DNA of 64,000 nt, from assembly GCA_017404985.1 (NCBI GenBank), contig JAFRBK010000046.1, positions 1 to 64,000 of the forward strand, read 5' to 3'. The notes beneath the pieces were generated by a model. The model saw nothing but the letters and a program-made list of their open reading frames with translations, was not told where the DNA came from and did no database searches. Of this stretch, positions 13,262 through 50,199 are shown piece after piece (position 1 is the stretch's first letter; the number at the start of each line of letters is the position of its first letter). The translations under genes were made by a program, and so were the position numbers. Source of the DNA: Clostridia bacterium. GTDB lineage: Bacteria > Bacillota > Clostridia > Christensenellales > Aristaeellaceae.

Positions 13262-13266
13262 AACAT

Positions 13267-13638: not shown

Positions 13639-13656
13639 CGGTTTCCTGTCCCTCAT

Positions 13657-13732
13657 GCGGTAGTAGCTCAGTTGGTAGAGTGCCACCTTGCCAAGGTGGA
13701 TGTCGCGGGTCCGAGTCCCGTCTACCGCTCCA
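13657..13732 (+). tRNA. tRNA-Gly (anticodon GCC)
   Basis: Acceptor GCGGTAG pairs with CTACCGC, anticodon loop TTGCCAA. CCA is encoded. Confidence 0.95.
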
Positions 13733-13735
13733 TTC

Positions 13736-13809
13736 GCGGGTGTAGCTCAATGGCAGAGCTCCAGCCTTCCAAGCTGGTAACGTGGGTTCGATTCCCATCA
13801 CCCGCTCCA
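13736..13809 (+). tRNA. tRNA-Gly (anticodon TCC)
   Basis: Acceptor GCGGGTG pairs with CACCCGC, anticodon loop CTTCCAA. CCA is encoded. It starts three bases after the previous tRNA-Gly. Confidence 0.95.
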
Positions 13810-25303: not shown

Positions 25304-26499
25304 TCCTGAATCCCCCTGGACTGGTCATAGGCCTTCCACAGCGGCGCATACACCGCCACGGCCCGTTCGTGCTCCGCCAGCGTGCGGGAGAAATACAGCT
25401 CGCCGCTTTCCGGTTCCTTGGCGCAGAAGAACAGGTAGTTTTCCGCAATCATGGCTTCGTCCGGATACAGGGCGGCCCGGATGGCCTTGGCCGAAGGGTT
25501 GCAGATGGGGCCAACCGGCAGTCCGGAATAAAGATAGGTGTTGTACAGGCTGTCCTTTTTGATGTCCTGGTTTGTCAGGGCCATCTTGCGCACGCCGGTA
25601 ATATAATGGATGGTAACATCGCTCTCCAGTTTCATCTTGGCCTTCAGCCGGTTATGGAACACTGCGCTGACCCGGGCAAAGTCGCTTTCCCCGGCTTCCT
25701 TTTCGATCAGGCTGGCCATTGTCAGTACCTGGTCCATGGTCATCCCCAGGGACTGGGCCCGCTCCTGTTCCTCCGCCGGGAACGCCGCTTCGGTCTGGCT
25801 CAGCAGTTTCCGGATGATTTCCTCCGGCGTCGCGCTGGTATAAACCTCATAAGTGTTCGGCGCCAGGTATCCTTCCAGCACGTATTTCCGCTCCTTCGGG
25901 CGCCCCGAAGTCAGCACGTCGGCCACATAGTAGTAATCCTTGAAGGCTTCCCCGGTCCGGCACAGCTCCAGGAAGGAAGCCGCGTCCTCCAGCGTCCCGT
26001 CCTTAACCAGCTTTGCCGCAAAGGCTTCCACGGTTTCGCCCGGAATCAGGGTGATATTTCGGACCAGCGGGTTTCCGTCTCCGGACGTCAGCTTTTCCGC
26101 GATCTCCGTCATGCTCATATCCTTCCGGAGTGCGTACGTCCCCACCTGGATCTTCTGGGCCATGCCCGCGAAGTCGCAGTAATACTTGAACACGGATTTG
26201 GAGCGGATCAGGTCCGCTTCCTCCAGGTTCCCCGCGACCCGGTTCAGGCTCTGGCCGCTTGATATTTCAAAGGAGATTTCTGCGGAATCGTTCGTGTCCA
26301 CGGGCGCGAAAAAGGATCCGTATACCTTGTCGTATACGGTATAGCCGATTCCCCCGACAATCACGGCCACCGTCAGCGCCACCAGCAGGGGCCGCAGCAC
26401 ATGCCAGAGGCCGGAGTACCAGAAGAATCCGTATTCACGCTCATCCCGCATCGTGCGGTACGTAATCCGCCTTTCCTCTTTCAAAGCAAGCCCCTTCAA
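25300..26499 (-). CDS. mltG: Endolytic murein transglycosylase MltG
   Basis: Membrane-anchored lytic transglycosylase that cleaves nascent glycan strands and sets their length. 399 residues from a TTG at 26499 (AAGGG upstream); TTG at 26484 is an equal alternative. One transmembrane helix at about 37-60. A LysM-like region (about 75-135, FEISSGQSLNRVAGNLEEADLI) and the YceG catalytic domain with catalytic Glu in MASLIEKEAG, KLESDVTIHY, YNTYLYSGLPVGPICNPS. Four bases after the ylbF stop. Confidence 0.93.
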   Translation of the reverse strand: MKGLALKEERRITYRTMRDEREYGFFWYSGLWHVLRPLLVALTVAVIVGGIGYTVYDKVYGSFFAPVDTNDSAEISFEISSGQSLNRVAGNLEEADLIRSKSVFKYYCDFAGMAQKIQVGTYALRKDMSMTEIAEKLTSGDGNPLVRNITLIPGETVEAFAAKLVKDGTLEDAASFLELCRTGEAFKDYYYVADVLTSGRPKERKYVLEGYLAPNTYEVYTSATPEEIIRKLLSQTEAAFPAEEQERAQSLGMTMDQVLTMASLIEKEAGESDFARVSAVFHNRLKAKMKLESDVTIHYITGVRKMALTNQDIKKDSLYNTYLYSGLPVGPICNPSAKAIRAALYPDEAMIAENYLFFCAKEPESGELYFSRTLAEHERAVAVYAPLWKAYDQSRGIQE

Positions 26500-26502
26500 T
26501 GG

Positions 26503-26853
26503 TTACCCTTCTGCGCCCGGAATGCCCATGTCCACATCCGCCGCTTCGGTCACAATCTTGAAAATATCGGCCAGCGCCTGCTGCAGGCGCATTTCCGACA
26601 GCAGGAACTGGCTCACCTCCGGTTTGGAGAAAAGCAGGGTGGAGATGCCGGAAAAGCGCTGCTGGTCCTCGGCGTCCGAGGCTTGGCCGGACATGGCCGC
26701 CATCTGAATGGAAACCTGCAGCTTGCGGTATTCCTTGATCAGCGCAGCGGTGGTCTCGTCTGCCATCACTTCTTTTTTCAGGTCATGGTAGGTTTTGTAT
26801 TCTTCGCTGTCACGGATATCCTGCGCCAGTTTGTAGGTTGATGAATAATCCAT
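26503..26853 (-). CDS. YlbF/YmcA-family protein
   Basis: 116-residue all-helical protein of the YlbF/YmcA (DUF964) family. In Bacillus these form a complex with YaaT that acts with RNase Y in mRNA processing and affects sporulation, competence and biofilm. Signature YKLAQDIRDSEEYKTYHDLKKEVMADE and FLLSEMRLQQALADIFKIV. AAGGAG lies nine bases before ATG. First gene of the ylbF-mltG-U32-VanW operon. It sits next to the RNase J gene but has its own promoter. Confidence 0.85.
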   Translation of the reverse strand: MDYSSTYKLAQDIRDSEEYKTYHDLKKEVMADETTAALIKEYRKLQVSIQMAAMSGQASDAEDQQRFSGISTLLFSKPEVSQFLLSEMRLQQALADIFKIVTEAADVDMGIPGAEG

Positions 26854-26887
26854 ATCGTCCTCTCCTTCGGCCTTTCATGCAATAAAC

Positions 26888-26947
26888 GAACGGGGAAGAA
26901 GTTTCCTTCCTCCCCGATATTATACTGATTTTACAATTTTTCTTCAA
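26888..26947 (-). promoter_or_regulatory. Promoter and leader hairpin of the ylbF-mltG operon
   Basis: Minus strand -35 TTGAAG (26942-26947), 17-bp spacer, -10 TATAAT (26919-26924). The predicted RNA begins with a strong stem, CGGGGAGGAAG pairing with CTTCTTCCCCG around GAAA (about 26890-26916), followed by TTCGTTTATT. It may protect the 5' end, attenuate, or terminate read-through from rnj. Confidence 0.65.
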
Positions 26948-30300: not shown

Positions 30301-30319
30301 GGCGCGAACAGAAAAAAAA

Positions 30320-30445
30320 CCGCCTGCGCTCAGACCGGGCAACCCCGCAGCACATCCAGCAAACGCTTACTGCTGCTTCCGTCAGGACCTGACAGGGTTC
30401 ACGCCGAAGGATCGCACAGGACCCAATCTTCATCGCGCAAACGGC
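30320..30445 (-). ncRNA. ffs: Signal recognition particle RNA, small type
   Basis: 4.5S-like SRP RNA that partners Ffh in membrane targeting. The conserved domain IV apex is read on the minus strand: GTCAGGTCCTGACGGAAGCA followed by GCAGTAAGC. The 5' end CCGTTTGCGC (30435-30444) pairs with the 3' end GCGCAGGCGG (30320-30329) using G-U wobbles. That closing helix plus eight T (30312-30319) forms the terminator. About 126 nt with no room for an Alu domain, unlike Bacillus scRNA. Confidence 0.9.
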
Positions 30446-30451
30446 TTGTAC

Positions 30452-30480
30452 AGTATACCCTGTATCAATCCAAAAAGCAA
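30452..30480 (-). promoter_or_regulatory. Promoter of ffs
   Basis: Minus strand -10 TATACT (30452-30457), 17-bp spacer, -35 TTGCTT (30475-30480). Predicted +1 at about 30445 coincides with the 5' strand of the closing helix. Confidence 0.65.
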
Positions 30481-30512
30481 GGTCTCTGCTTTGTTTTTTC
30501 CCATTTTTTCCC

Positions 30513-32645: not shown

Positions 32646-32671
32646 CGCACTCTGAAAAGCGCGACCTTGGC

Positions 32672-32700
32672 AGTATATCTTATTCCGGAGCGTTTTTCAA
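32672..32700 (-). promoter_or_regulatory. Promoter of queT
   Basis: Minus strand -35 TTGAAA (32695-32700), 17-bp spacer, -10 TATACT (32672-32677), about 20 bases before the preQ1-I-like stem. Confidence 0.7.
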
Positions 32701-32754
32701 GCATTGCGCGCAAGTTTTGTGTCGTGTTTTTTTCGTTTTCTTCTGCGCTGCTTT

Positions 32755-32783
32755 TTGCTTTTTGTTTTCCGCTGTGGTATACT
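32755..32783 (+). promoter_or_regulatory. Promoter of the sensor-GGDEF-EAL gene
   Basis: -35 TTGCTT (32755-32760), 17-bp spacer, -10 TATACT (32778-32783). These are the same hexamers as ffs. This places the RNA start at about 32790 and so excludes the in-frame ATG at 32667. Confidence 0.6.
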
Positions 32784-32846
32784 TTTTTCGTATATATTCT
32801 GAAAAAGAATCTTCCTGCCATCACCCGGAAAGGACGCTTCACCATT

Positions 32847-35800
32847 ATGGTTATCGGAGTCTGCCTGTCGGAGCTGCATAATTATCTGAACACCGGTTAT
32901 GTGGCGGAGCTGGACCGCGCCGCCCGGAAATGCGGAAGCGAACTGATTGTGTTTAACAGTTCGCTGGATTTCCACTGGTATCAGAAAGACAGCCGGGTCG
33001 CCCGGAGTATTTTCCATGCCATCAGCTACGACCTGTTTGCCGGGCTGGTGGTTATTTCGAACAGCTTCCATGATGAAGAACTCTTTGATGAAATCGTCTC
33101 CAACGCCGCTGCGCACCATGTGCCCGTTGTCAGCGTCGGCCTGCCTCATGCGGGTTGCTACAATATCGTCAACGACCCGGGAAACGCTTTCAAAACACTG
33201 CTTCGCCATGTAATCAGGGATCACGGCGCCCGGGATACCTTTTTCATCACCGGGCAGGAAGGAGAGGAAAACTCCGAGTTCCGCCTCCGGTGCTACCGGG
33301 AGGTGCTCGCGGAATTCGGCCTGCCTTTTCTGGAGGAGAACGTCGCCTCCGGCAAGTATTGGGCCCAGCCGGCCGCAGCCATCACGCTGCAGCTGATTCA
33401 GGAGCGGGAAAAGCTGCCCGACGCCATTTTCTGCGCCAATGACATCATGGCCATTTCCGTCTGCGACACCCTGAAGGAAAACGGATACCGGGTGCCGGAG
33501 GATGTCATTGTCACCGGTTTTGACGGCATTCCTGCCGCCGGCCTGGTGAATCCCCGGCTGGCGACGGTCAGCGATAATCAGGAGGAGCTGGCTGAGCAGA
33601 CGGTGGATCTGATCGCTCGGCTGTCCCGGGGGGAAGAAGTGGATCATACGCTGACCCATCCCTTCCGGGCCGTCTTCTCTGAATCCTGCGGCTGCCATGT
33701 GGAGGACAACCGACGTTATGATGCCCTGGCGATGCTCCGGATGCTGGATTCAGAGCATGACCATGAAAACCAGCTGTACCACACGGTGGAGCGGATGCTG
33801 ATGCAGACCGATTCGAAAGAGTTTGCCCGGATTCTGTCCCATTCTCTTCCCGCCAACTCTGCCGTCTGCCTGAACCGGAGCTGCATGGGCGTATACGAGG
33901 GAAAAGATTATACCGCAACCGAAATTGAGGAGGACCTGCTCCGGATTCCCCGAACCGTTCCCCCGGAGGAACCGGATCTGCAATATACCCGTCTGCACGC
34001 GAATTCACCGGTTTCCCGCATACGCAGCGGGGTCACGCTGGTTTCCGCCATCCATTCCGATACCGCCGTGTTCGGATACTTTTCCGCCCAGACCCAGAAC
34101 CTGCGCCAGGATTCCCAGCTGCTGAAGCGCATGTCGGACGTGCTGAACCTGGTTTTTACGATTCATCTGGGAAACCTCCGGCAGCGGAATCTGATCAGCC
34201 ATATCGAGCAGAGCCAGTATCAGGATTCCCTGACCGGGCTGGCGAATCTGAAAGGCCTGACCCAGTGGTTCAGCCGTTTCGAATCCGATCCGGACAACCA
34301 TCGGCTCTGCATTGCACTGTCTGTTTATGAAGTCAGCCGCTACTCGTATATTTATGAAACTTCCGGCATTGAGGAAACGGAATCTGTCATCAGTCAGATC
34401 ACCGGCGCGTTGATCACTGCCAACCCCGACGCCGCAAAGCTGGCCCGGATCAGTGAAAACCAGTTTGTGGTTTTCGACTGTGCCGTCAGCGACTCCGTGC
34501 TCAGCCGGAAGATTGATGCCACCGTGGCGGATTTTTACCGGACGGTAGAAAGCTACAACGCCGAAAGCGATAATGACTACTTTGTGGAAATTCACGCCGG
34601 CTGCACGACAATGAGCAGCGGCTGGAACGCCGCCGGGCTGGAAAACCTGATCCGGCTGGCTACCGGCGAAATGTATCTGAACCGGCTGCGTTCCGAAAAT
34701 CATGAAGCCGTCCGGGATACCCATATTACCGCGGAACTGTATAACACCTTCAGCCTGCTGATGGAGAAGAATCTTTTCCGGTATCACTTCCAGCCCATTG
34801 TGGATGCAAAAACCGGCCTGATTGTTGCCTATGAGGCGCTGATGCGTACGGATAATCTGATCAGCCTGTCGCCGATGCAGATTCTGGCCATCGCCCGGGA
34901 ATACAACCGGCTTGATGAAGTGGAAAAAACAACGATCTTCGGCATCATGGAGCGCTTTGTCCACGATTTCAGTTCCTTCAACGGCTCCAAAATTTTCATC
35001 AATACGATCCCCGGCCATTTTCTGAGCGTGGCGGACTGCGCGGAAGTCATGGAACGCTTCGGCAACTATCTGGACTGCTTTGTCTTTGAACTGACCGAGC
35101 AGGATACCACTTCCGACGGGGAACTGGGCCGGCTCAAGCGCCTCTGCAAGCCCGGTACTCAGACCCAGATTGCCATTGATGACTATGGTACCGGCCACAG
35201 CAACATGGTCAACGTGCTTCGCTACTCGCCCCAGATCATCAAAATTGACCGGGAGCTGATCTGCGGTATCGAAGGCGACAGCAACAAGCAGCTTTTCGTC
35301 CGCAACACGATCGACTTTGCTCACCGGAACGGCATCAAGGCCCTGGCGGAAGGGGTGGAAACCAGGGATGAGCTGCTGACGGTCATCGGTTTCGGCATCG
35401 ACCTGATTCAGGGATTTTATACCGGCCGTCCCTCGGACCGCCCGCTTCGGGAACTTCCCGAAAATATCCGCCGGACCATCGCTGAGGAGAACCTGCGGCT
35501 GGCCAGTTTCGACAATGACCGCATGTCGTATACGGCGCGGAATGGGGAGACGGTGGACCTTTTCGATCTCGCCCTTCATCAGTTCGCCTATCTGGATATT
35601 CCGGAAGGAACTGTCACGCTGCACGGCCAGCCCGGCATCACCGTGGATATGACGGTCCGGCTCGCCTCCGATGCCCGGATCACCCTGATTCTGGACAATG
35701 CTGACATCAAAGGAAGCAACGAACCAACCCTGCAGCTCGGCAGCAACACCGAGGTGACGCTGGAGCTCCGGAACGAAAACGCCCTGCGGAAAGACGGCAT

Positions 35801-36701
35801 CCAGGTGCCCGGCAATGCGTCGCTGCGTGTGGCCGGGAGTGGAAACCTGCTGGTGGACAGCACCCGCAACTATTCCACCGGGATCGGCGGCAACTTCAAT
35901 GATTCCTACGGCACCATTCTCTTTGACCTGGACGGCCGGGTGGAAGTACGGGTTTCCGGGGATAAGTCCATCTGCGTCGGCGGCCGGAACAGCTCAGGCA
36001 GCGGCATCACGCTGAAGCGTGGCGAACTCATACTGAACGCCAACGGCATCAATGCGCTGGGCATGGGCAGCGCTGCGGGCAACACCGTCATCCGGCTGGA
36101 GGGCGGCAGCCTGCACTGCCATGTCCAGGGGAATGACGGCGTCAGCATCGGAACCCTGACGGGATATGCTTCCCTGGAGTCCGCTGCGGACCTGGACGTC
36201 GTCACGGACTGTGAGCGGTCCGTCGGCATCGGCACCCAGACCGGCACCATGGACCTTCGCTTTGTGGGCGGCACGGTCCGGTCGTTGCTCCACTGTGATG
36301 CGGGCGCCTGCATCGGCAGCCTTAGCGGCGAGGGAACCACCCGCATTCGCGGCGCCGCGGTCCATGTGCATGGCGAGGGCAACCTGGTAGCCGGCTACGG
36401 CAGCGTGAAAGGTGCCTGCGACACCCGTGTGGAGGGTGGCTTCGTCGGCGGGGAACTGCTGGCGGCCCAGCGAATGCTGCTCGGCAATGAAAACTCCCGC
36501 ATGGTCATCACCGGCGGCAACATCCGGCTGTATCCTGAGGACAATAAAGTTCCTGTCAGCCCGGACGGAACCCCGCTGTTCCTGCTGGATCCCAAAGGGG
36601 ACACTTTTGAAAACACCTTCCGGGACAAGCGGGCGGTTTGGAATTACAGGGCAGTCCGGTCGGCGGACGGCCATCTGAATGTCTGGATTCCCGGACAGTG
36701 A
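32847..36701 (+). CDS. LacI-type sensor / degenerate GGDEF / EAL / beta-helix-like c-di-GMP phosphodiesterase
   Basis: 1284 residues from ATG 32847. Residues about 1-285 are a LacI/GalR-type periplasmic-binding-protein fold without the HTH (DAIFCANDIMAISVCDTLKENGYRVPEDVIVTGFDGIP). About 290-450 is GAF-like. GGDEF domain at about 455-620 (SLTGLANLKGL) has ISENQF in place of GGDEF, so no cyclase activity is expected. EAL domain about 625-875 keeps EAL (YEALMR, 661), the Asn of FINTIPGHF, ELTEQD, DDYGTGHSN (778), KIDREL and EGVET (836), so it should hydrolyse c-di-GMP. About 885-1284 is a Gly-rich right-handed beta-helix-like repeat (ITLILDNADI, GSGNLLVDS) resembling Cthe_2159-type carbohydrate-binding proteins. 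No signal peptide: predicted cytoplasmic. A sugar-responsive phosphodiesterase is inferred. Confidence 0.85.
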   Translation: MVIGVCLSELHNYLNTGYVAELDRAARKCGSELIVFNSSLDFHWYQKDSRVARSIFHAISYDLFAGLVVISNSFHDEELFDEIVSNAAAHHVPVVSVGLPHAGCYNIVNDPGNAFKTLLRHVIRDHGARDTFFITGQEGEENSEFRLRCYREVLAEFGLPFLEENVASGKYWAQPAAAITLQLIQEREKLPDAIFCANDIMAISVCDTLKENGYRVPEDVIVTGFDGIPAAGLVNPRLATVSDNQEELAEQTVDLIARLSRGEEVDHTLTHPFRAVFSESCGCHVEDNRRYDALAMLRMLDSEHDHENQLYHTVERMLMQTDSKEFARILSHSLPANSAVCLNRSCMGVYEGKDYTATEIEEDLLRIPRTVPPEEPDLQYTRLHANSPVSRIRSGVTLVSAIHSDTAVFGYFSAQTQNLRQDSQLLKRMSDVLNLVFTIHLGNLRQRNLISHIEQSQYQDSLTGLANLKGLTQWFSRFESDPDNHRLCIALSVYEVSRYSYIYETSGIEETESVISQITGALITANPDAAKLARISENQFVVFDCAVSDSVLSRKIDATVADFYRTVESYNAESDNDYFVEIHAGCTTMSSGWNAAGLENLIRLATGEMYLNRLRSENHEAVRDTHITAELYNTFSLLMEKNLFRYHFQPIVDAKTGLIVAYEALMRTDNLISLSPMQILAIAREYNRLDEVEKTTIFGIMERFVHDFSSFNGSKIFINTIPGHFLSVADCAEVMERFGNYLDCFVFELTEQDTTSDGELGRLKRLCKPGTQTQIAIDDYGTGHSNMVNVLRYSPQIIKIDRELICGIEGDSNKQLFVRNTIDFAHRNGIKALAEGVETRDELLTVIGFGIDLIQGFYTGRPSDRPLRELPENIRRTIAEENLRLASFDNDRMSYTARNGETVDLFDLALHQFAYLDIPEGTVTLHGQPGITVDMTVRLASDARITLILDNADIKGSNEPTLQLGSNTEVTLELRNENALRKDGIQVPGNASLRVAGSGNLLVDSTRNYSTGIGGNFNDSYGTILFDLDGRVEVRVSGDKSICVGGRNSSGSGITLKRGELILNANGINALGMGSAAGNTVIRLEGGSLHCHVQGNDGVSIGTLTGYASLESAADLDVVTDCERSVGIGTQTGTMDLRFVGGTVRSLLHCDAGACIGSLSGEGTTRIRGAAVHVHGEGNLVAGYGSVKGACDTRVEGGFVGGELLAAQRMLLGNENSRMVITGGNIRLYPEDNKVPVSPDGTPLFLLDPKGDTFENTFRDKRAVWNYRAVRSADGHLNVWIPGQ

Positions 36702-40165: not shown

Positions 40166-40636
40166 TCAGCGCAGCCGTTCTCTCCCGTTCAGCACGGCTT
40201 CCAGCAGTCGGTCCCCGCTGTACACCAGCTTCAGCGAAAAGAACGGTTTCCCTTCCTCCAGCAGCCGCAGAAAGATCCGGTCCCCTTCCCACTGGGGCAG
40301 CTTTCCCAGGTCCTCCTTCCGGATCCATTCCGGGTCTCCCTCGTCGCAGGGAATCATCTCCCCGGTAAAGCCGTCCGCGGTGAACAGATGCATGAATTCC
40401 GTCTCGCAGATGTCGTTGACAAAGGTAACGATGCCCCGGTACCGCCAGGAGGTCAGGGTCAGGCCGGTTTCCTCCTTCACCTCGCGCAGCACGCAGTCCT
40501 CCGGGCTTTCCCCGTCCTCAAACTTGCCGCCCAGGCCGATCCACTTGTCGTGGTTGATGTCGTCCTTCTTCCGGGTCCGGTGCAGCATCAGCACCTCGTC
40601 TCCCCGGGTGATATAGCACAGCGTGGTATTGATCAC
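40166..40636 (-). CDS. Nudix hydrolase (8-oxo-dGTP diphosphatase-like)
   Basis: 156 residues, GTG start overlapping the synthetase stop (GTGA). Nudix box G-x5-E-x7-REUxEExGU is intact: GGKFEDGESPEDCVLREVKEETGL (about residues 36-59). MLHRTRKKDDINHDKWIGLGGK resembles the YtkD/MutT group that sanitises oxidised nucleotides; YRGIVTFVND and WIRKEDLGKLPQWEGDRIF fit too. Its translational coupling to an acyl-CoA synthetase is unusual, so an acyl-CoA or related diphosphate substrate is possible. Confidence 0.88.
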   Translation of the reverse strand: MINTTLCYITRGDEVLMLHRTRKKDDINHDKWIGLGGKFEDGESPEDCVLREVKEETGLTLTSWRYRGIVTFVNDICETEFMHLFTADGFTGEMIPCDEGDPEWIRKEDLGKLPQWEGDRIFLRLLEEGKPFFSLKLVYSGDRLLEAVLNGRERLR

Positions 40637-42930
40637 AGCAGCGCCCTCTGAATCTTGCCGGAAACGGTCTTGGGCAGTTCCGTGCGGAACACCACGATCC
40701 GGGGATACTTGTATGGGGCGGTATGCTGCTTCACGTAGTTCTGGATTTCCTTTTTCAGCTCCTCGCTGGGTTCCGTTCCCGGTGTCAGCACGATGCTCGC
40801 CTTGACCACCTGGCCGCGGATTTCATCCGGCGCGGCGCTGACGCCGCACTCCAGCACGTAGGGCAGTTCCATGATCACGCTCTCGATTTCGAACGGCCCG
40901 ATGCGGTATCCGCTGGACTTGATCACGTCGTCTGCCCGGCCCACGTACCAGTAGAAGCCGTCTTCGTCGCACCAGGCCACGTCCCCGGTGTGGTACCAGC
41001 CGTCGTGCATAGCCTCCCGGGTCTTCTCCTCATCCCGGTAGTATTCGTGGAAAAGGCCGATCGGGATCCCCTCCGAAATATCCACGCAGATTTCGCCGGA
41101 AGTGCCGGGGGCCACGGGCTTCCCGTCGCTGTCCAGCAGCGCCACCTTGTAGATCGGGGCCACTTTGCCCATGGATCCCAGCTTGTGGGGCGCGCCGGCC
41201 AGGTTGCCGATGATCATCGTGCTCTCCGTCTGGCCGAAGCCTTCCATCACCTGCAGCCCCGTCTGCTTTTCAATCTGGCGGAAAACCTCCGGGTTCAGTG
41301 CCTCGCCCGCGCTGGACGCGTGGGTCACGGAGGACAGGTCGTACTGGCTCAGGTCCTGCTTGATCAGCATGCGGTACATGGTGGGCGGCGCGCAGAAGGT
41401 GGTGATGTGGTATTTCGCGAACATCGGCAGGATGTCCGCCGCGTCGAAGCGGTCAAAGTCGTATACGAAGATCGCCGCCTCGCAGAGCCACTGGCCGTAG
41501 ATCTTTCCCCAGCCGGCCTTGGCCCATCCGGTGTCGGAAATGGTCAGGTGCAGGCCGTTGGGATTTACGCAGTGCCAGTATTTGGCGGTATGCAGATGCC
41601 CCAGCGGATGGGTATAGGTATGGGCGGCAATCTTGGGGTAGCCCGTGGTACCCGAGGTGAAATACATCAGCATCAGGTCGTTGCCGCAGGGCGTGTCCTC
41701 CGTGCGGTTGAAGTGGGTGGAATACATCAGGTATTCCTCGTCGAAGTTGTGCCACCCCAGCCGATTGCCGTTCACGATCAGCTTCAGCTCCACGCTGGGC
41801 GCGTCCTTCGCCGCCAGCTCCGCCTGGCGGGCGGTGTCCCCGTCCGCGGTGCAGATAATCGCTTTCACGCCCGCGGCGTTGAACCGGTATTCGAAGTCGT
41901 GCTCCTGCAGCTGGCAGGTAGCGGGAATCGCAATCGCCCCGATCTTCTCCAGCGCCAGGATCGAGAACCAGAACTGGTAGTGCCGTTTCAGCACCAGCAT
42001 CACCCGGTCCCCCTTCCGGATGCCCAGGGCCCGGAAATAGTTGGCGCACCGGTTGGAAGCCCGCCGGATGTCGTTGAAGGTGAACCGGCGCTCGTTCTTT
42101 TCCCGGTCCACATGCAGCATGGCCAGCTTGTTCGGCACCTCCGCCGCGATGGCGTCCATCACGTCGAAGGCAAAGTTGAACTTCTCGGTATTCTTGAAGG
42201 TAATCTTCACCGGGGTGCCGTTTTCGTCTTTTTCCACGTCGGCAAACCGGTGCCATACGCGGGTGCGGCCGTTCTCCGCCGGGAACTCCTCCAGCTGGGT
42301 GCCGGGCATGACCTTCTCCGGCGTCAGTTCCGGAATCGGCGCGCCGGTGGGATTCAGCACGATGGCATAAAACAGGCAGTCCTTCCCGCCCACGGCGATC
42401 ATTCCGTGGGGCGTGCCGCTGTCGTAATAGATGGAGTCTCCGGGGTTCAGCACACTGATATGCTCGCCGACCTGCACCTTCAGCTGTCCCTCGATCACGA
42501 TATCGCACTCCTGCCCCTCGTGGGTCGTGAGCTTGATGTCCTCTTTTTCCGCTTCCGCGCTGTAGGCTGCCTGGACATACAGGGGCTCGGCGATCCGGTT
42601 CCGGAAGGAAGCCGCCATGTTGTAATAGATCATGTCGTGGGCTTCCTCAATCCGCTGCCCTTCCCCTTGGCGGGTCACGGTGAAGGAGTTCAGGTTCGGG
42701 CTGGAACCTTCGATAATGTCCCCCACGTCGACGCCGAACGCCAGCGCGCACCGGTACAGGAACGCGAAGTTCAGGTCGGACCTTCCCATTTCGCAGTCAA
42801 TGTATTCTTGTTCGGTAATGCCGGTCTTGTTCGCCATCTCCGCGATGGTGAACCCTTCAATCTCGCGCAGCTCGCGGATCCGGTGTGCCATCTCCTGAAT
42901 TTTGTAGTTCAGCCCTGTCATCTGTGCCAT
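40633..42930 (-). CDS. XRE-HTH / cupin / acyl-CoA synthetase fusion protein
   Basis: 765 residues from ATG 42930 (GGAGGG eight bases upstream). Residues about 5-65 are an XRE helix-turn-helix (IRELREIEGFTIAEMANKTGITEQEYIDCEMG). About 100-185 is a cupin barrel (ECDIVIEGQLKVQVGEHISVLNPGDSIYYDSGTPHG). About 225-765 is a complete adenylate-forming ligase of the medium-chain acyl-CoA synthetase type: P-loop LMYFTSGTTGYPK, GFGQTES, YHTGDVAWCDEDGFYWYVGRADDVIKSSGYRIGPFEIE and the catalytic C-terminal Lys in LPKTVSGKIQRALL. The fusion could let the enzyme sense its substrate and bind DNA. Preceded by a T-box leader, so expression should respond to an uncharged tRNA. The acid substrate is not known. 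Confidence 0.88.
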   Translation of the reverse strand: MAQMTGLNYKIQEMAHRIRELREIEGFTIAEMANKTGITEQEYIDCEMGRSDLNFAFLYRCALAFGVDVGDIIEGSSPNLNSFTVTRQGEGQRIEEAHDMIYYNMAASFRNRIAEPLYVQAAYSAEAEKEDIKLTTHEGQECDIVIEGQLKVQVGEHISVLNPGDSIYYDSGTPHGMIAVGGKDCLFYAIVLNPTGAPIPELTPEKVMPGTQLEEFPAENGRTRVWHRFADVEKDENGTPVKITFKNTEKFNFAFDVMDAIAAEVPNKLAMLHVDREKNERRFTFNDIRRASNRCANYFRALGIRKGDRVMLVLKRHYQFWFSILALEKIGAIAIPATCQLQEHDFEYRFNAAGVKAIICTADGDTARQAELAAKDAPSVELKLIVNGNRLGWHNFDEEYLMYSTHFNRTEDTPCGNDLMLMYFTSGTTGYPKIAAHTYTHPLGHLHTAKYWHCVNPNGLHLTISDTGWAKAGWGKIYGQWLCEAAIFVYDFDRFDAADILPMFAKYHITTFCAPPTMYRMLIKQDLSQYDLSSVTHASSAGEALNPEVFRQIEKQTGLQVMEGFGQTESTMIIGNLAGAPHKLGSMGKVAPIYKVALLDSDGKPVAPGTSGEICVDISEGIPIGLFHEYYRDEEKTREAMHDGWYHTGDVAWCDEDGFYWYVGRADDVIKSSGYRIGPFEIESVIMELPYVLECGVSAAPDEIRGQVVKASIVLTPGTEPSEELKKEIQNYVKQHTAPYKYPRIVVFRTELPKTVSGKIQRALL

Positions 42931-42955
42931 GATGTGTTCCCTCCGTTGCGATCGG

Positions 42956-43223
42956 AAAAATAAAACCCGTCCCAAAGGTTTGCTTTGAGACGAGCATGAA
43001 ATCATACCCGCGGTACCACTCAAATTGCGGATTCCTCCGCCGCTTCAGGCTCACGCTTCCGGAAGCCCTGTGCATTCACGCAGCCGTCACGGGGAGGTTC
43101 TACTGGCCCGAAAGCGTTCTTCCTCCCGGCTCCGGAGCTACAGCGAACTGGGTCTTCCCGCGGCTCGCACCACCCGCCGCGTCTCTGAAGCCGAACCCGG
43201 CCGCACTCTCCTTCACAGCCATT
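42956..43223 (-). promoter_or_regulatory. T-box leader of the XRE-cupin-acyl-CoA synthetase gene
   Basis: tRNA-sensing leader of about 265 nt. The T-box antiterminator sequence AATTTGAGTGGTACCGCGGG is at 43007-43026 with the UGGU bulge that pairs with tRNA NCCA. A terminator follows: CGTCTCAAAG pairs with CTTTGGGACG (42969-42992), then GGTTTTATTTTT. Stem I is recognisable, with base GGCT/AGCC and GGAG/CTCC, distal GCGGC/GCCGC around GGGTGGTGCGA. The 3' side of the predicted specifier loop reads AGTTCGCTGTAG; TTC (Phe) is a candidate codon but not proven. Confidence 0.85.
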
Positions 43224-43229
43224 GCGGAG

Positions 43230-43259
43230 ATTTTACCCCTTTTCTCGATGGTTTGTCAA
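43230..43259 (-). promoter_or_regulatory. Promoter of the T-box operon
   Basis: Minus strand -35 TTGACA (43254-43259), 18-bp spacer, -10 TAAAAT (43230-43235). It overlaps the 3' end of the upstream esterase gene. Confidence 0.75.
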
Positions 43260-44788
43260 CCGTCCCGCCGTTTTTCCTTTGTTTCCAGCCGGAAAGGTTC
43301 CAGGGGCAGCCCGTTTTTCCCGAAAAGGTTCACCTGGTCCGAGTAATCCGTCCACGCATAGCGGACCGAAACCGGGCGCCGGATCTCCGGGTTCCGGATC
43401 TTCAGGCAGCCGTCCTCCGGCCATCCCTCCGCCGGGCGGAACGCCCCGTCCTCTCCGGCGATCTCCAGCAGGCGCGGCGCCTGCCCGTCCCGGGTTTCCA
43501 CCGGGGCGGAAAGCGCCACAAGGGCGGTATCCCCTTCCATGCGAACGCCCGTTGCCCGGGGAGAAATCTCCCCCCCGCCGTACAGCATCTCCGCCGCCAG
43601 TTCGTACAGCCGGTCGCCCACAGGCTTCTTGTTGGTCGGATGAATGTTGCCGTATTCGCCCTGGTCCAGCAGGCAGACCATGCCGGTTCCGGGCACCGCG
43701 TCCCGCACCGCTGCCTGCTGCAGGCGCAGGGCCGGCCAGCGGAAGGTGTCCTCCTTGCCAAAGTCCACCCACATTGGCAGCTGCACGAACAGGAAGGGCA
43801 GTTCCGGATCCCGGAACAGCTCCCGCCACCGGCGGATCAGCAGGATCATCAGCTCGTCGTACCGGTCGGTTTTGTCCGCGTCCTCCTCCCCCTGGTACCA
43901 GAGGATCCCGGTCAGGGTCGCGGGTGCCGCGGCATGCACCATGGGCTCTGCCAGCCCGGCCGGCCGGTAGGGCGACCCCGGGCCCGCCGGCGGGTTCCAC
44001 GGGCACGGGCCGCAGGCCTCCGTCACCGCGTTCCAGTCCGCCCCGGGGTGGCTTTGTTTGAACCGGTCCACCTGCCGGTTCCAGGCATCCAGGGTTTCGA
44101 AGAAGGTTTTCTCTTCCTTCAGGTAGGTCTCCAGCGTGATTCCCCCGGTTTTCTCCGCGTATTCCTTCAGGTAGCGCCGTCCCTCCTCCGAGGTCTCCAG
44201 CACGCTTTCCTCCAGCCAGCAGGTAATGGAGGTTCCGCCCCAGTAGCAGTCGATCATCCCAACCGGCAGCTCCGGTTCCGCCGCGCGCAGCCGGCAGGCA
44301 AAGAAATAGGCCACCGCGCTGTTTTCCCCGCCGCGGCCGGGAGAAACCGCCTCCCATCGGGCCGCGTCCACGGCCTCCTGCTGTTCCGGGCATACCCGTG
44401 CCATTTTGGGCACGTTGAAAAACCGGAGCAGCGGATCGCGGTGCTCCCGGATCCGTTCCGGGCCGCCGTCCGCGTTGGCCAGTGCCAGCTCCATGTTGCT
44501 CTGCCCGCCGGCCAGGAACACCTCGCCGATCGCGATATCCCGGGCCGTCGCGTGTTCTCCGCCAGCCCGGATCTCCAGCGTGCAGCCGTCCTGCGCCTCC
44601 TGGGGCGCCAGGCAGGCTTCAAAGCGCCCGCCCGCTGCCAGGGCGCAGCCCTCCGCCAGCAGGCGCCCGTCCGCCGCCGTCAGCCGTACACAAACCTCGT
44701 TCCCATCCGCCGCCTCACCAAACACACGGATTTCCTTCCGTCTGCACAGCACCGCGCCGTCCGTAAACAGAGAAGCTGGTTTCAGCAT
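43256..44788 (-). CDS. Sialate O-acetylesterase-like SGNH esterase
   Basis: 510 residues from ATG 44788; an in-frame TTG at 44809 has no ribosome-binding site. No signal peptide, so cytoplasmic. Nucleophile motif G-G-Q-S-N-M-E (about 92-98), ILWYQGEED (about 300), and a C-terminal DQGEYGNIHPTNKKPVGDRL that supplies the catalytic Asp/His. Annotated homologues are called sialate O-acetylesterases, but their position in mannan operons points to removal of acetyl groups from manno-oligosaccharides. Last gene of the mannan operon. Confidence 0.82.
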   Translation of the reverse strand: MLKPASLFTDGAVLCRRKEIRVFGEAADGNEVCVRLTAADGRLLAEGCALAAGGRFEACLAPQEAQDGCTLEIRAGGEHATARDIAIGEVFLAGGQSNMELALANADGGPERIREHRDPLLRFFNVPKMARVCPEQQEAVDAARWEAVSPGRGGENSAVAYFFACRLRAAEPELPVGMIDCYWGGTSITCWLEESVLETSEEGRRYLKEYAEKTGGITLETYLKEEKTFFETLDAWNRQVDRFKQSHPGADWNAVTEACGPCPWNPPAGPGSPYRPAGLAEPMVHAAAPATLTGILWYQGEEDADKTDRYDELMILLIRRWRELFRDPELPFLFVQLPMWVDFGKEDTFRWPALRLQQAAVRDAVPGTGMVCLLDQGEYGNIHPTNKKPVGDRLYELAAEMLYGGGEISPRATGVRMEGDTALVALSAPVETRDGQAPRLLEIAGEDGAFRPAEGWPEDGCLKIRNPEIRRPVSVRYAWTDYSDQVNLFGKNGLPLEPFRLETKEKRRDG

Positions 44789-44818
44789 CCTTTTCGCCCC
44801 GTTCCCCAACTCTATAGC

Positions 44819-45997
44819 TCAACTCTTAACTCTTAAATAGTCCAAATTTTTCCGAATCATCTCCGCCCGCTGGCGCACGCAGTCCGGGCTCCGCAGCGGG
44901 TCTTCCGGCGTATTGAACACATAATCGGTCAGCCGGGCGATATCCGTCTCCGCCACATGCATCCGGGTGTCGGAGGCCGCGTAGTACAGATAAACTTTCC
45001 CGTCGTCGTCCGCGATGGCGCCGTTGGTGAAGACCACGTTGGACACATCGCCCACGCGCTCATGCCCCAGCGGCCCCAGCAGCATGCCGGAGGGCTCGGC
45101 GATGATCTTCGCCGGATCCTGCAGGTCCGTGGCAAAGGCATACAGCACATAGCGCAGGCCTGCCGCCGTATTCCGGACGCCGTGGGCCAGGTGGATCCAG
45201 CCCCGTTCAGTTTTGATCGGCACCGCGCCGGCCCCGTTCTTGGCTTCGGTGATCGTATGGTATTTCCGGCGGCTCAGGATTTTCTCCTCGTCCACCACCG
45301 GGTGCATAATATCCTCGCACAGCCCGAATCCGATGCCCCCGCCGGATCCCGTGTCAATAAAGTCGTCCATGGGGCGGGTGTAGAAGGCATATTTCCCCTC
45401 CACAAATTCCGGATGCAGCACCACGTTGCGCTGCTGCGGGGAGCGCAGGGTGACCAGGTTCGGCAGCCGCTCCCAGTTCTCCAGGTCCTTCGTGCGCACG
45501 ATGCCGGCTGCCGCCACCGCCGCGGACAGGTCCGGATTGCTTTCGTCCTTGCTTTCGGAGCAGAACACGCCGTAGATCCAGCCGTCCTCGTGCTTCGTCA
45601 GCCGCATGTCGTATACGTTGGTTTCCTGCTTTTCCGTGTCCGGCAAAATTACCGGAAGGTCCCGGAAGCGGAAGCCTTCCGTGGGCTGGTCGCTCTCCGC
45701 CACGGCGAAGAAGCTCTTCCGGTCCGCGCCCTCCACCCGCACCAGCAGGCAGTATTTGCCATTCACCTTCAGGGCCCCGCTGTTCAGCGTCGCGTTCACG
45801 CCCAGGCGCTGCATCATGAAAGGGTTGGTTTCCGGGTTCACGTCATACATCCAGAAGGGAGGAATATGCTCCCGGGTCAGCACCGGATTCCGGTACCGCT
45901 GGAACAGGCCGTTGTAGAAATGCTCGTCTGCCGGATTCGGGCGGGCCAGCAGCCGCTCATAGTTTTCCATCAGGGAGTCAAAGCTTCGGATGAACAT
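44819..45997 (-). CDS. GH130 4-O-beta-D-mannosyl-D-glucose phosphorylase-type enzyme
   Basis: 392 residues, the usual size for GH130 subfamily 1. It phosphorolyses beta-1,4-mannosyl-glucose to mannose 1-phosphate and glucose. Five-bladed propeller features: [68 protein letters not shown] (catalytic Asp region), [55 protein letters not shown]. Placement between GH130_2 and the esterase and in the same operon as cellobiose 2-epimerase is the classical Ruminococcus RaMP1 context. Confidence 0.92.
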
Positions 45998-46013
45998 GGT
46001 TCTTTCTTTCCTT

Positions 46014-47042
46014 TCAATAGTTGTGAACGGCTTCGTCGTCGCCTGCGTGCAGCACGCTGTGGGCCTTGATGTAGTCCACGATTTCGTCCGCCGTCGTGAA
46101 CGCCAGCCCCACGTTGGTGTCCGCCGCGCCGTAATAGATCGCGATCCGCCCGGTGTCCCCGTCCTGCAGCGTCGCGCAGGGGAACACCACGTTCGGCACG
46201 AAGCCGGTCGTTTCGTAGTCCTCTTCGGGCGTCAGCAGGTGGTTTTCGCACCGGTACAGCACCCGGCTCGGCTCATCGGTATCCAGGATCGCCGCGCCCA
46301 TTGAATATACAAACCCGTTGCAGGTGGTGGCCACGCCGTGGTAGAACATCAGCCATCCTTCGCTGGTTTCAATCGGCGCCGCCCCGGCCCCGATCTTGAC
46401 GCTCTGCCACCATTCCCCGCCGCTGCCCATCACATGGCGGTGTTTTCCCCAGTATACCATGTCCGGGGATTCGGAAATGAAAATATCCCCAAAGGGCGTG
46501 TGCCCGCTGTCGGAGGGCCGGGAAAGCAGCCGGTAGGTGCCGCCGATCTTCCGGGGAAAGAGCACCGCGTTGCGGTTGAAGGGAATAAAGGGGTTCTCAA
46601 TCCGGGTGAACGTCCGGAAATCCTTCGTCTTCGCCATCCCGATGGAGGCGCCGTAAAAATCCCCGCACCAGATAATGTAGTAGGTATCCTCCACCTTCAC
46701 CAGCCGGGGATCATAGGCGTAGTGCGGCATTTTCGGGTTCCCCGCCTCGTCGGTGAAGGGCACCTTCTCCTGTTCCACGTCCCAGTGGATGCCGTCCTTC
46801 GAGTGTCCCAGGTACACGTAGGGCACGCCGTTGACCTGCTCGCCGCGCAGCACTGCGATGAACCCGTCCTCCCACGGCACCACCGCGCTGTTGAAAATCC
46901 GGGCAATCGCCGGTGTGGGGTTCCGGCCCATGACCGGGTTGCCGCTGTAGCGCCAGACGGGGCTCTCCGTTTTCAGTCCCGCCGGCCGCTCCTGCCAGGG
47001 AATATTGGGAAGGGGGTTCACATTTTTCAGCTTCACAGCCAT
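46014..47042 (-). CDS. GH130 beta-1,4-mannooligosaccharide phosphorylase-type enzyme
   Basis: 342 residues from ATG 47042 (AAGGAG nine bases upstream). GH130 subfamily 2-like; removes mannose from beta-1,4-mannooligosaccharide ends by phosphorolysis. Motifs: [63 protein letters not shown] (catalytic Asp region), [32 protein letters not shown] and [31 protein letters not shown]. Seventeen bases upstream of the other GH130 gene. Confidence 0.92.
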
Positions 47043-47103
47043 ATCAGCATTCTCCTTTTGATTTGCTTTTTCCTGCCTGCCGTTTTCGGCATGCACGAAA
47101 GGG

Positions 47104-48120
47104 TTATGGTTCTCCGTTCAGGGCCCGCTCGGAATCCCGGTAGATCGGCATCCCGCTGACCACCACCCGCTTGAAGGGCCGGTCCACGCCGGAGCAGCGC
47201 TCCACCATGCTTTTCACCGCCAGGTCGACCATGGTGTCCATGTCCACCCGGAAGGTGCTCAGGGCCGGCAGCACTTCCTGCCCGCCGGTAAAATCGTCGA
47301 ACCCGGTCACCGAGATATCCTCGGGCACACGCAGCCCCCGCCGGTTCAGGGCTTCAATCATCATCCTGGCCGTCAGGTCGCAGTTGCATACGAAGGCGGT
47401 CGGCAGGTTTTCCGGCAGCCGCGGTTCCTCGATCAGGGAGTCGCCTTCCTCCCGGTCGTTCAGGATCCACTCCTCCCGCACCGGCAGGTTGTTCACCAGC
47501 ATCGCCCGGTAGAAGCCCAGATAGCGGTCCATGATGCTGCCGGTCGCCCGGCGGTTCCCGACGAACCCGATCCGGGTATGCCCCCGGCGGATCAGATGGC
47601 TGGTCAGCCGGTAGGAGCCGTAGCTGTTGTCGCCGACCACGCAGTCCGCCTTGCCCTGCTCGTCGTAAAAATCCAGAAACACTTTGGGGATGTCCGTCTG
47701 GCTCGTCATCCGGTAGTAGGCCTTGGTCGGCTCGCCCAGCAGGATCAGCCCCTGGGCCCGCCCGGACCGCACCAGGTTCGGCAGGGTCAGGCTTGCCTCG
47801 TCCCCGGCTTTCAGAATCTCCAGCAGCCCGAAATGGCCGTATTCCGACAGCTTCAGGATCAGCTTCTTGTAGATCACGGAATAGAAGGACTCCTCCTGGA
47901 AGTACCGGTCCGGGATCAGGATCCCGATGTCCAGGTGCTCCGGCGCCGGCAGGGAGGTCCTGCCCGCGTAGTGATAGCCCATCTCCTCCGCCTTCCGCAG
48001 AATTCTGCCGCGGAGCTTTTCGCTCATGCCGGGTTTGCCAGCCAGCGCCTTGGACACCGTGACCGCGCTGGTCCCGACGGCCTTGGCAATGTCCCGCATG
48101 GTTGGCTTCTTCAATCCCAT
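47104..48120 (-). CDS. LacI-family transcriptional regulator of the mannan operon
   Basis: 338 residues from ATG 48120 (GGGAGG five bases upstream). N-terminal LacI HTH (MRDIAKAVGTSAVTVSKALAGKPGMSEKLRGRILRKAEEMGYHY) and a periplasmic-binding-like ligand domain (about 65-335, VVGDNSYGSYRLTSHLIRRGHTRIGFVG, GLRVPEDISVTGFDDF). Encoded inside the operon, so it is probably autoregulated. A 23-bp palindrome at the operon promoter (52661-52683) is its likely operator. A mannobiose-related sugar is the likely ligand by context. Confidence 0.9.
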   Translation of the reverse strand: MGLKKPTMRDIAKAVGTSAVTVSKALAGKPGMSEKLRGRILRKAEEMGYHYAGRTSLPAPEHLDIGILIPDRYFQEESFYSVIYKKLILKLSEYGHFGLLEILKAGDEASLTLPNLVRSGRAQGLILLGEPTKAYYRMTSQTDIPKVFLDFYDEQGKADCVVGDNSYGSYRLTSHLIRRGHTRIGFVGNRRATGSIMDRYLGFYRAMLVNNLPVREEWILNDREEGDSLIEEPRLPENLPTAFVCNCDLTARMMIEALNRRGLRVPEDISVTGFDDFTGGQEVLPALSTFRVDMDTMVDLAVKSMVERCSGVDRPFKRVVVSGMPIYRDSERALNGEP

Positions 48121-48146
48121 CGTTTCCTCCCGCGTGTATTGTCTGC

Positions 48147-49310
48147 TTATGCCGGCAGGTCCGCCCCGATCAGGCGCAGGCACATTCTCCCGTTGTGATA
48201 GGGGCATTTCCATTCCTCCACCATCGGCTTGCCGAGTGATGTGCCGTCCTCCCGGAGCTCATTGAACCATTCGCTCCCCTCCCGGAGGTCCACGACGGCG
48301 TTTTTCACATATGCCCACTGGGTTGTCAACCGCTCGGCCCATGCCGGGTCCTTCGTCATCTCCCATCCGAAGGCAAATCCCAGCATCGCCTCCGCCTGGG
48401 GCCACCAGGCCCGGGTGGTGTTAAGTTCGCCGTTCACGATTTCGTAGTGCAGGCCGTGGTCCGTGAAGGCGCGCTCCGTCGGGCTTGTCAGCAGGTCCAG
48501 GCACATCCCGCGCCATTTTTCTGCCCCCGCTTCTCCCGCGAAGGCAATGGCCGCGTCGTACAAAAGCCAGCTTCCCTCAATGTCGTGCCCATAGCTCTGC
48601 ATGTCCAGAATCGGCCGGAAATCATCGTCAAAAAAGACCTCCATCCGCCGCTTTTCCGGATTGTAGATGGTGTCCAGCGCCTGTTCCATTCCCCGGAGCC
48701 CCGCCGCGCGCACCGCCTCATCCGGGCAGGCCCGTTCCAGCTCCGCGTATGCTTCAATCACGTGCAGCAGCGTGTTCATGGTCCGGGAGGCCATGATGCC
48801 GTTCTCGCTCAGCTTCTCGTTGCTTTCCGGGCTGAAGTCCGCCTTCAGCGCTTCCAGGTATCCCTTCCCGTCCCGGCATTTTCCCTCGATGGTCCGGAAC
48901 AGGCCCCTGGCGGTTTCCAGTGCCTCCGCCTTCCCGGTCAGCCGGTAGTAGGCCGCCAGCCCGTAGACCGCGAACGCCTGGCAGTATGTGTGCTTGGTCG
49001 TGTCCGCCGGTTTCCCGTCAAAGGTCACGGACCAGAAAACCCCGCCGTTGTCCGGATCCTGAAACTTTTTCAGGAAATCGTAGGCCCGGTCCGCGTACGG
49101 AACCAGGTCCTTCCGGTCCAGCACCCGGGCCGCCGTGGCGAAGGTCCACAGGATCCTGCTGTTCAGGATGCAGCCCTTGTCCGCCTCTTTGTCCAGCTTC
49201 AGGTCTTCGTCCATGAAGCCGTAATATCCACCGAAGTCCTCGTCCTTCAGCGCCATCCAGAAAGGCAGGATTTTCTCCTCCAGGTGGGCTCTCAGCTCGT
49301 CTCTCAGCAT
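48147..49310 (-). CDS. Cellobiose 2-epimerase (mannobiose epimerase)
   Basis: 387 residues, AGE-superfamily alpha6/alpha6 barrel. Epimerises the reducing-end residue of beta-1,4-mannobiose to mannosyl-glucose (and cellobiose to glucosyl-mannose), feeding GH130_1. Conserved: FWMALKDEDFGGYYGFMDEDL, NSRILWTFATAAR, KHTYCQAFAVYGLAAYYRLTG, MNTLLHVIEAYAEL, YGHDIEGSWLLYDA, TTRAWWPQAEAMLGF, EEWKCPYHNGRMCLRLI, including the catalytic His residues of the family. GGAGGGAGAACC precedes ATG. Confidence 0.92.
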   Translation of the reverse strand: MLRDELRAHLEEKILPFWMALKDEDFGGYYGFMDEDLKLDKEADKGCILNSRILWTFATAARVLDRKDLVPYADRAYDFLKKFQDPDNGGVFWSVTFDGKPADTTKHTYCQAFAVYGLAAYYRLTGKAEALETARGLFRTIEGKCRDGKGYLEALKADFSPESNEKLSENGIMASRTMNTLLHVIEAYAELERACPDEAVRAAGLRGMEQALDTIYNPEKRRMEVFFDDDFRPILDMQSYGHDIEGSWLLYDAAIAFAGEAGAEKWRGMCLDLLTSPTERAFTDHGLHYEIVNGELNTTRAWWPQAEAMLGFAFGWEMTKDPAWAERLTTQWAYVKNAVVDLREGSEWFNELREDGTSLGKPMVEEWKCPYHNGRMCLRLIGADLPA

Positions 49311-49326
49311 GGTTCTCCCTCCATTT

Positions 49327-50199
49327 TCAGCCCTTGACGGAGCCGCTGGCCAGCCCGGCGTATACCTGTTTCTGGAAGAACAGGAAGATGATCAGCGACG
49401 GAATCAGCGTCAGCAGCACGCCGGCGCAGATAATGTTGTAGCTGCTCTTGAAGGGGCCGGAGAAGGAATACAGCGCCGTGGAAATCGTCCGCCAGCTGTT
49501 GGACTGCAGGTACAGGTTGGCGTTGTAATATTCGTTGTAGACCCCAACGCCCTTGAGAACCGCCACGGTAATGATGGCCGGCTTGGTCAGGGGCAGCAGA
49601 ATCTTGAAGAATACCCCGAAATACGTGCATCCTTCCAGCACGGCGGATTCATCCAGCGCCACATCCAGGTTCTCAAAATACTGCAGGAAAATATAGATGG
49701 AAATGACGTCTGTCCCGCTCATCAGGATGGCGTATCCGACAATCGAGTTCAGGAAACCCAGGTCCTTCATGATCTGGTAGGTGGTCACCTGCATGGCGAT
49801 GCCGGGAATCAGCGTCGCGATCATGAACATGTTCCGGATCAGGTTATTGCCGGGAAAGCGGAACCGGTTCAGCACGTAGGCCAGCATGGACCCCATCATC
49901 ACGGAAACGGCCACCACGACCACCACCACGCCCCCGGATGTCAGAAAGGCCCGGGGCATGTCGCCGTCGTTCCATACCTGGACGTAGTTCCCGAAGTTCA
50001 GCCAGTTCACCGGCGGGGTCATCGCGTTGGTGCTGCCGTATTCCTCCGCCGTCTTGAAGGAAATCATGAAGGAGGACACCAGGGGAAGCAGGGCGATGAA
50101 CGTAGCCAGCAGCAGCGCGAAGTATTCCAGCGCTTTGATGATAAACCGCTTCGTCCGCGCGGAGGAATTGCTGGGCATCACGGATGTCAGGTTGCTCAT
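49327..50199 (-). CDS. Carbohydrate ABC transporter permease, MalG type
   Basis: 290 residues, six predicted helices starting with a long N-terminal helix (about 20-46). The EAA cytoplasmic loop reads ESAVLEGCTYFGVFFKILLPLTKPAI, and the C-terminus FFQKQVYAGLASGSVKG is typical of CUT1 permeases. GGGGAGG precedes ATG. Seventeen bases after the MalF-type gene. No MalK-type ATPase is encoded in the operon, so it must use a shared ATPase encoded elsewhere. Confidence 0.92.
   Translation of the reverse strand: MSNLTSVMPSNSSARTKRFIIKALEYFALLLATFIALLPLVSSFMISFKTAEEYGSTNAMTPPVNWLNFGNYVQVWNDGDMPRAFLTSGGVVVVVVAVSVMMGSMLAYVLNRFRFPGNNLIRNMFMIATLIPGIAMQVTTYQIMKDLGFLNSIVGYAILMSGTDVISIYIFLQYFENLDVALDESAVLEGCTYFGVFFKILLPLTKPAIITVAVLKGVGVYNEYYNANLYLQSNSWRTISTALYSFSGPFKSSYNIICAGVLLTLIPSLIIFLFFQKQVYAGLASGSVKG

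Follow-up and report, generated by a model that had tools for sequence, protein, structure and literature searches.

Transcriptional T-box riboswitches (Rfam family RF00230) combine a specifier loop, a UGGU-containing T-box sequence and an overlapping terminator, and are known ahead of genes for aminoacyl-tRNA synthetases, transporters and classical biosynthetic enzymes. In the rumen, branched volatile acids have been known for decades as precursors of valine, leucine and isoleucine (PMC7356843). The formation of valine from isobutyrate and of isoleucine from 2-methylbutyrate is classical rumen biochemistry (PMC7356843), and isoacids are reported to serve as a feed additive for ruminants (PMC12272956). 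Two described enzymes act on such acids: Macs from Methanosarcina acetivorans (PDB 3ETC), for which a preference for 2-methylbutyrate is reported (PMC10455477), and MbcS from Staphylococcus aureus, which is reported to use both 2-methylbutyrate and isobutyrate (PMC10026030). Here we describe a locus in a 64,000-nucleotide stretch from a Clostridia bacterium (contig JAFRBK010000046.1, positions 1 to 64,000; hereafter the window) in which a T-box leader with a valine specifier precedes a gene for an XRE-cupin-acyl-CoA synthetase fusion. We propose, with a probability of about 0.86, that this enzyme is an isobutyryl-CoA synthetase, induced by valine starvation, whose product enters valine synthesis through reductive carboxylation.

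On the minus strand, the locus comprises a promoter, a full-length RF00230 T-box, a terminator and an open reading frame of 765 codons, in this order (window positions 43,259–40,633). The sigma-70-type promoter (TTGACA-18 nt-TAAAAT; 43,230–43,259, minus strand) matches 11 of 12 consensus bases, against a mean of 0.0 hits in shuffled sequences. The leader (42,983–43,225, minus strand) aligns with positions 1–219 of the 219 positions of the covariance model at 69.4 bits, with E = 5.5e-15 for a search of 601 bases and E = 6.5e-15 for a genome-wide one. The T-box sequence UGGUACCGCG (43,009–43,018, minus strand) is evident both from the sequence and from the RF00230 alignment, and its UGGU (43,015–43,018) is able to pair with a tRNA acceptor end that has A as the discriminator base. 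This pairing rule is well established, and A is known as the discriminator base of tRNA-Val. An intrinsic terminator of 13 pairs with a T tail (42,965–42,995, minus strand) overlaps the 3' part of the leader; it is the one terminator found, compared with a mean of 0.5 (sd 0.8) in shuffles. Since the gathering score for RF00230 is 93, a scan of the window at this threshold misses the T-box, which a relaxed scan finds. The genome contains eight T-box matches, two of which reach the gathering score and six of which, including that of the window, fall below it. At E ≤ 10 the genome search returned some T-box match in 10 of 14 control genomes, so that weak matches are uninformative. In single-sequence folding the leader gained little over shuffled versions (z = -1.04), of which 30 in 200 equalled or surpassed it.

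The ligase gene (40,633–42,930, minus strand; 765 amino acids from ATG) was assigned from its open reading frame and from Pfam matches to HTH_19, HTH_3, Cupin_2, AMP-binding and AMP-binding_C, all above cut-off. These place the HTH at residues 17–73, the cupin at 131–190, the AMP-binding domain at 262–617 and the C-terminal domain at 681–759. With these data, the T-box, the promoter, the terminator and the fusion protein are confirmed as real, in agreement with a previous sequence-only reading of this DNA, which had described a T-box, a consensus promoter and a terminator ahead of a ligase with its own DNA-binding and cupin domains.

The specifier columns of the RF00230 alignment are occupied in the window leader by GUA (Val; 43,139–43,141, minus strand), after which come G and the CUCC strand of the basal helix. 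The same register was read in relatives, where type A denotes orthologs of the window protein and type B orthologs of a paralog in the same genome, both assigned by protein identity alone. In a first set, an unfiltered MAFFT alignment of 130 leaders of at least 230 bases (66 type A and 64 type B) has a valine codon in the specifier columns of all 66 type A leaders (GUA 44, GUC 19, GUG 3), 34 of which belong to genomes of the window's genus. The next base is G or A in each of the 66. All 64 type B leaders have AUC (Ile) in these columns, followed by A (29), C (22), G (11) or U (2). A row-by-row reading of this set, which, unlike the column reading, kept only candidates starting with GT or AT, covered 157 rows after removal of 8 duplicates. 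Among its 72 type A rows, 66 were read, 2 are truncated by a contig end and 4 have no T-box motif; among the 85 rows of type B or deeper, 66 read AUC, 18 have no motif and 1 has only a distant motif. Three specifiers (L140, L152, L154) were read by eye.

A second set, drawn from metagenome-assembled genomes (best 80 of 571 relatives) and partly overlapping the first, yielded 60 unambiguous GUN specifiers for type A and 37 AUC specifiers for type B, and no other codon. The 79 type A rows behind this count comprise the 60 unambiguous ones, 10 without a T-box motif (2 of them from missing upstream sequence) and 9 that the script did not read. Seven of these nine are GUN by eye (L212, L224, L225, L228, L233, L245, L246), and the specifiers of L216 and L251 are not readable. 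The 50 type B rows comprise the 37 unambiguous ones, 8 without a motif and 5 with two candidates, one of which is AUC. In one type A leader of this set the base after the specifier is C, and a variant T-box sequence stands ahead of the type B gene at locus L043. A tree of 275 proteins, labelled from the two sets, has one change between Val and Ile and 12 third-base changes within Val. The third base of the valine codon drifts while the amino acid stays, and the assignment of the window specifier to valine is thereby settled about as firmly as sequence can settle it.

The type B paralog in the window's genome lies behind its own T-box (G000:C48:24389-24626; gene 24691-26946) and is 63% identical to the window protein. 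In other relatives the two genes often stand in tandem. At L041, for example, the order is a LeuA-like gene, a gene for a TIM-barrel-synthetase fusion, a T-box with the type B gene, a T-box with the type A gene, ilvE, a small NTPase-like gene, vorB and two genes for oxidoreductase subunits; IlvE and VorB (the NCBIfam name, here the alpha subunit) both score above their cut-offs. Context was assessed for the 64 second-set loci of at least 9 kb among the 80. Both paralogs are present at 45 of the 64, and 43 of these 45 encode the alpha and beta subunits of 2-oxoisovalerate:ferredoxin oxidoreductase (VOR) on the same strand, 36 of them together with IlvE. The remaining 19 loci contain type A alone, and 2 of them contain VOR. 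In the other set, of 80 loci of at least 9 kb, 11 contain both paralogs (9 with VOR) and 7 contain type A alone (1 with VOR). A plant-eating mammal is named as the host in 41 of the 80 second-set records; the others name no host.

Two side observations concern these relatives. An acyl-CoA synthetase fused to a xylose-isomerase-like TIM barrel is encoded next to the LeuA-like gene near the tandem at L041 (3538-6018) and at other loci. No T-box motif accompanies the fused B-like enzymes of L153, L156, L158 and L159, which come from genomes that contain ilvC (G351, G249, G203, G114); the L153 protein, though not clearly type A, has Ala at the position of residue 470 of the window protein.

The metabolic background of these genomes is consistent with a route to valine other than the usual one. 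No ilvC was found in any of the 45 genomes of the window's genus, that of the window included, by a search that finds this gene in 14 of 14 controls, and ilvD is over cut-off in none of the 45, with weaker superfamily matches in 7. VorB is encoded elsewhere in the window's genome and was found in 41 of the 45 genomes, one of the matches being a fragment. Among the matches listed for a sample of 391 genomes of the class, ilvC occurs in 2 of the 27 genomes that carry a fused type A gene versus 206 of 364 others (p = 2.9e-7), a comparison weakened by the lack of phylogenetic independence among the genomes counted. Where the only fused gene is B-like, 16 of 52 genomes contain ilvC; the typing of 22 of these 52 relied solely on identity to A. 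With two candidates scored per genome, a fused gene of either type is present in at least 79 of the 391 genomes, one copy (G171) being interrupted by stops. The window's genome also contains a T-box with the Leu specifier CUG ahead of a LeuA-like gene. The function of this gene is suggested by similarity; if the assignment is correct, the leucine branch from 2-oxoisovalerate would have a switch of its own.

Apart from the Val and Ile leaders, covariance-model reading of the other T-boxes of the genome (L001, L002, L003, L004, L007, L008) gave CUG (Leu) in the one just described, UAC (Tyr) in one and UGG (Trp) in three. None of the specifiers read among them is Phe; L008, the weakest T-box of the genome, was not read. 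As judged by eye, the Tyr T-box precedes a class I aminotransferase-like gene and one of the three Trp T-boxes precedes a gene for an ABC substrate-binding-like protein.

The best structure match of the synthetase part of the ligase is 3ETC (606 bits; the next structure scores 358 bits). The match is confined to ligase residues 248–763. The counterparts of 3ETC Trp259, of the Gly that replaces Trp416 of Acs, and of Tyr460, Arg490, Tyr525 and Tyr527 are identical in the ligase, with numbering converted through the YHTGD motif; the roles of these residues in the acyl and CoA pockets are taken from PMC10455477. The corresponding columns are invariant among 16 aligned proteins. The residue aligned with the acyl-pocket Trp259 is Trp474 (codon 41,509–41,511, minus strand). 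Four residues before it lies Ala470 (codon 41,521–41,523, minus strand), which is Ala in all 125 Val-labelled proteins and Gly in all 106 Ile-labelled ones, and Gly also in 3ETC. A larger side chain at this position for the smaller acid would be the expected sense of the difference. We regard this as a lead and not as a test, since Val-type and Ile-type proteins form two clades, between which fixed differences are expected anyway. The best NCBIfam match, for the window protein as for type B, is MbcS (NF047394), but the window protein's score of 436.5 bits is far from the equivalog cut-off of 850 and the ligase is not classed as MbcS. MbcS also differs in that it serves fatty acid synthesis and handles both acids with one enzyme. 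Taking codon, context and pocket together, we infer that the substrate of the window ligase is probably isobutyrate.

The proposed pathway would operate as follows. When valine runs short, uncharged tRNA-Val (anticodon UAC for GUA) would bind the leader, the terminator would not form and the ligase would be made. The enzyme would convert isobutyrate, a fermentation acid of the rumen, to isobutyryl-CoA, which VOR, running in the reductive direction, would combine with CO2 to give 2-oxoisovalerate. A branched-chain aminotransferase would turn this compound into valine. The type B paralog behind the Ile T-box would follow the same scheme from 2-methylbutyrate to isoleucine, and the Leu T-box before the LeuA-like gene would allow leucine to be made from 2-oxoisovalerate. 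As the codon of each T-box states an amino acid, it predicts which acid each paralog should activate.

The role of the XRE-cupin half is less clear. This part is conserved among the relatives of the ligase, and possibly acts as a ligand sensor on the enzyme or on DNA. Only residues 97, 100, 117 and 470 perfectly separate the 125 Val-labelled from the 106 Ile-labelled proteins, and the first three of them lie in the segment that separates the HTH from the cupin match of Pfam. They would fit a type-specific ligand or contact; clade history explains them equally well. At L055 an Ile T-box is followed by a separate gene for a 191-residue XRE-cupin protein and then by a separate synthetase gene; unfused relatives and relatives without a T-box also exist. 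An inspection by eye, with no motif search run, of the sequences upstream of the T-boxes at loci L009–L104 for a shared XRE operator revealed just promoter-like elements. A broader scheme may be drawn in which Clostridia without IlvC make branched-chain amino acids from gut acids under three codons: a Val T-box on isobutyryl-CoA synthetase, an Ile T-box on 2-methylbutyryl-CoA synthetase and a Leu T-box on the LeuA-like gene, with the XRE-cupin domains as a ligand-specific second control; each protein would then be a trigger enzyme, forming the acyl-CoA and also acting on DNA or on its own activity. In this complete form the scheme is tentative, and we consider it rather less probable than its opposite.

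Several observations weigh against the proposed valine pathway. A motif search found no T-box within 1,500 bases before the type A genes of L040, L088 and L090, and in the second set the same is true for 8 of 79 type A genes (L197, L198, L204, L211, L219, L234, L239, L256). T-box control of type A genes is thus common, not universal, and the tandem L040, which has none, shows that a T-box does not stand ahead of each gene in every tandem. Only 1 of 62 loci with type B alone in the other 80-locus set has VOR on the same strand. In the window's genus the ligase gene lies beside neither vor nor ilvE, and a vor gene is nearby at only 1 of 24 loci of at least 9 kb (L065, type B). Two type A genomes do contain ilvC (G204, and G319 with a partial match). 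Counted by genus, with any genome of the genus sufficing, the difference in ilvC shrinks to 4 of 17 type A genera versus 124 of 206 others (p = 0.004); it is 2 of 17 (p = 1.4e-4) if only type A genomes are counted. Many of the genomes are incomplete, that of the window being 85% complete, and the LeuA-like protein scores below the leuA cut-off. To these points must be added the distance from the MbcS cut-off given above and the reports that both 3ETC and MbcS accept other acids too (PMC10455477, PMC10026030).

This last property lends weight to the idea that the ligase takes a broad range of short branched acids and that the paralogs differ in regulation only. Residue 470, close to the pocket Trp and split without exception between the two types, speaks for a difference in substrate, as does the Gly at this position in 3ETC, a 2-methylbutyrate enzyme; the two-clade split weakens this argument. 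We consider a shared substrate range unlikely, but it is the alternative that we take most seriously. Alternatively, the valine-controlled activation of isobutyrate might mainly prime branched-chain fatty acid synthesis, as with MbcS of S. aureus, which is the best NCBIfam match and is reported to feed FabH (PMC10026030). The Val and Ile specifiers, the tandems with VOR and IlvE and the rarity of ilvC all point to amino acids instead, which makes this use as the main one improbable; the two uses of the acyl-CoA can coexist. In principle the ligase could work in the catabolic direction, in the fermentation of branched-chain amino acids, since VOR is a reversible enzyme that is common among fermenters of amino acids. 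However, AMP-forming synthetases spend ATP. Moreover, T-boxes are described as permitting transcription on uncharged tRNA (PMC7778990), the opposite of what catabolism needs, and we regard this direction as very improbable.

The sequence-only reading had proposed a T-box for phenylalanine on a phenylacetate-CoA ligase serving phenylalanine synthesis, on the grounds of a UUC with a purine after it, located near the specifier loop in the 3' strand. This triplet (43,145–43,147, minus strand) lies outside the specifier position, where the covariance model has GUA in register, and it is not conserved: the corresponding columns contain TTC in 2 of the 66 type A leaders. The fit to RF00230, proposed in that reading as a check, thus yielded a specifier for another amino acid, and the link to phenylalanine falls with it. 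The idea that a T-box controls a ligase whose product is probably then reductively carboxylated holds up; phenylalanine and phenylacetate do not, given the Val specifier and the VOR and IlvE neighbours in relatives, and phenylacetate as the substrate is by inference wrong. The genome does contain a gene for the alpha subunit of indolepyruvate ferredoxin oxidoreductase, which had been named as a further check, but VorB and prephenate dehydratase are also present, and this gene decides nothing. Prephenate dehydratase is part of the ordinary route to phenylalanine, by which this organism may make the amino acid. Of all the alternatives, we find control by phenylalanine the least credible.

The remaining features of the window are described for completeness. 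A NUDIX hydrolase gene (Pfam match; 40,166–40,636, minus strand) follows the ligase, its start overlapping the ligase stop by 4 bases, and a NUDIX gene comes next at 24 of 35 type A loci examined in the genus; the range 40,166–43,259 of the sequence-only reading also takes in this gene. Upstream of the ligase lies a mannoside-type cluster (43,256–50,199, minus strand) that encodes a SASA esterase-like protein, two GH130 phosphorylase-like proteins, a LacI regulator and an N-acylglucosamine 2-epimerase-like protein; its segment 49,327–50,199 looks like an ABC permease by eye. A protein of about 1,300 residues (32,667–36,701, plus strand) carries GGDEF and EAL domains joined to a periplasmic-binding-protein-like sensor; no Pfam family matched its C-terminal 400 or so residues at E up to 1e-5. 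The RNase P RNA (11,903–12,236, minus strand), the large SRP RNA (30,309–30,503, minus strand) and a cluster of seven tRNA genes (13,185–13,809, plus strand) are ordinary.

Compared with known systems, the parts of the locus are ordinary. The leader has the elements of a transcriptional T-box, although its score is below the gathering cut-off and the gene that follows is an acyl-CoA synthetase. The overall conversion predicted for valine and isoleucine is that of the rumen route from branched volatile fatty acids associated with Allison and co-workers, to which our proposal adds genes and amino-acid-specific control. In the open-licence literature we found no paper that links such genes and such control to this route. 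Nor did we find a description of the combination itself, in which a Val T-box and its Ile twin each precede a branched short-chain acyl-CoA synthetase of what is probably a route by reductive carboxylation.

The finding proposes which synthetases start this route and how each of them is tied to its own amino acid, and it points to how some bacteria of the herbivore gut may build valine and isoleucine without the usual pathway. If it is true, acyl-CoA synthetases would join the list of T-box-controlled genes, the route would become readable from genomes, and dependence on branched acids among gut bacteria would be easier to predict.

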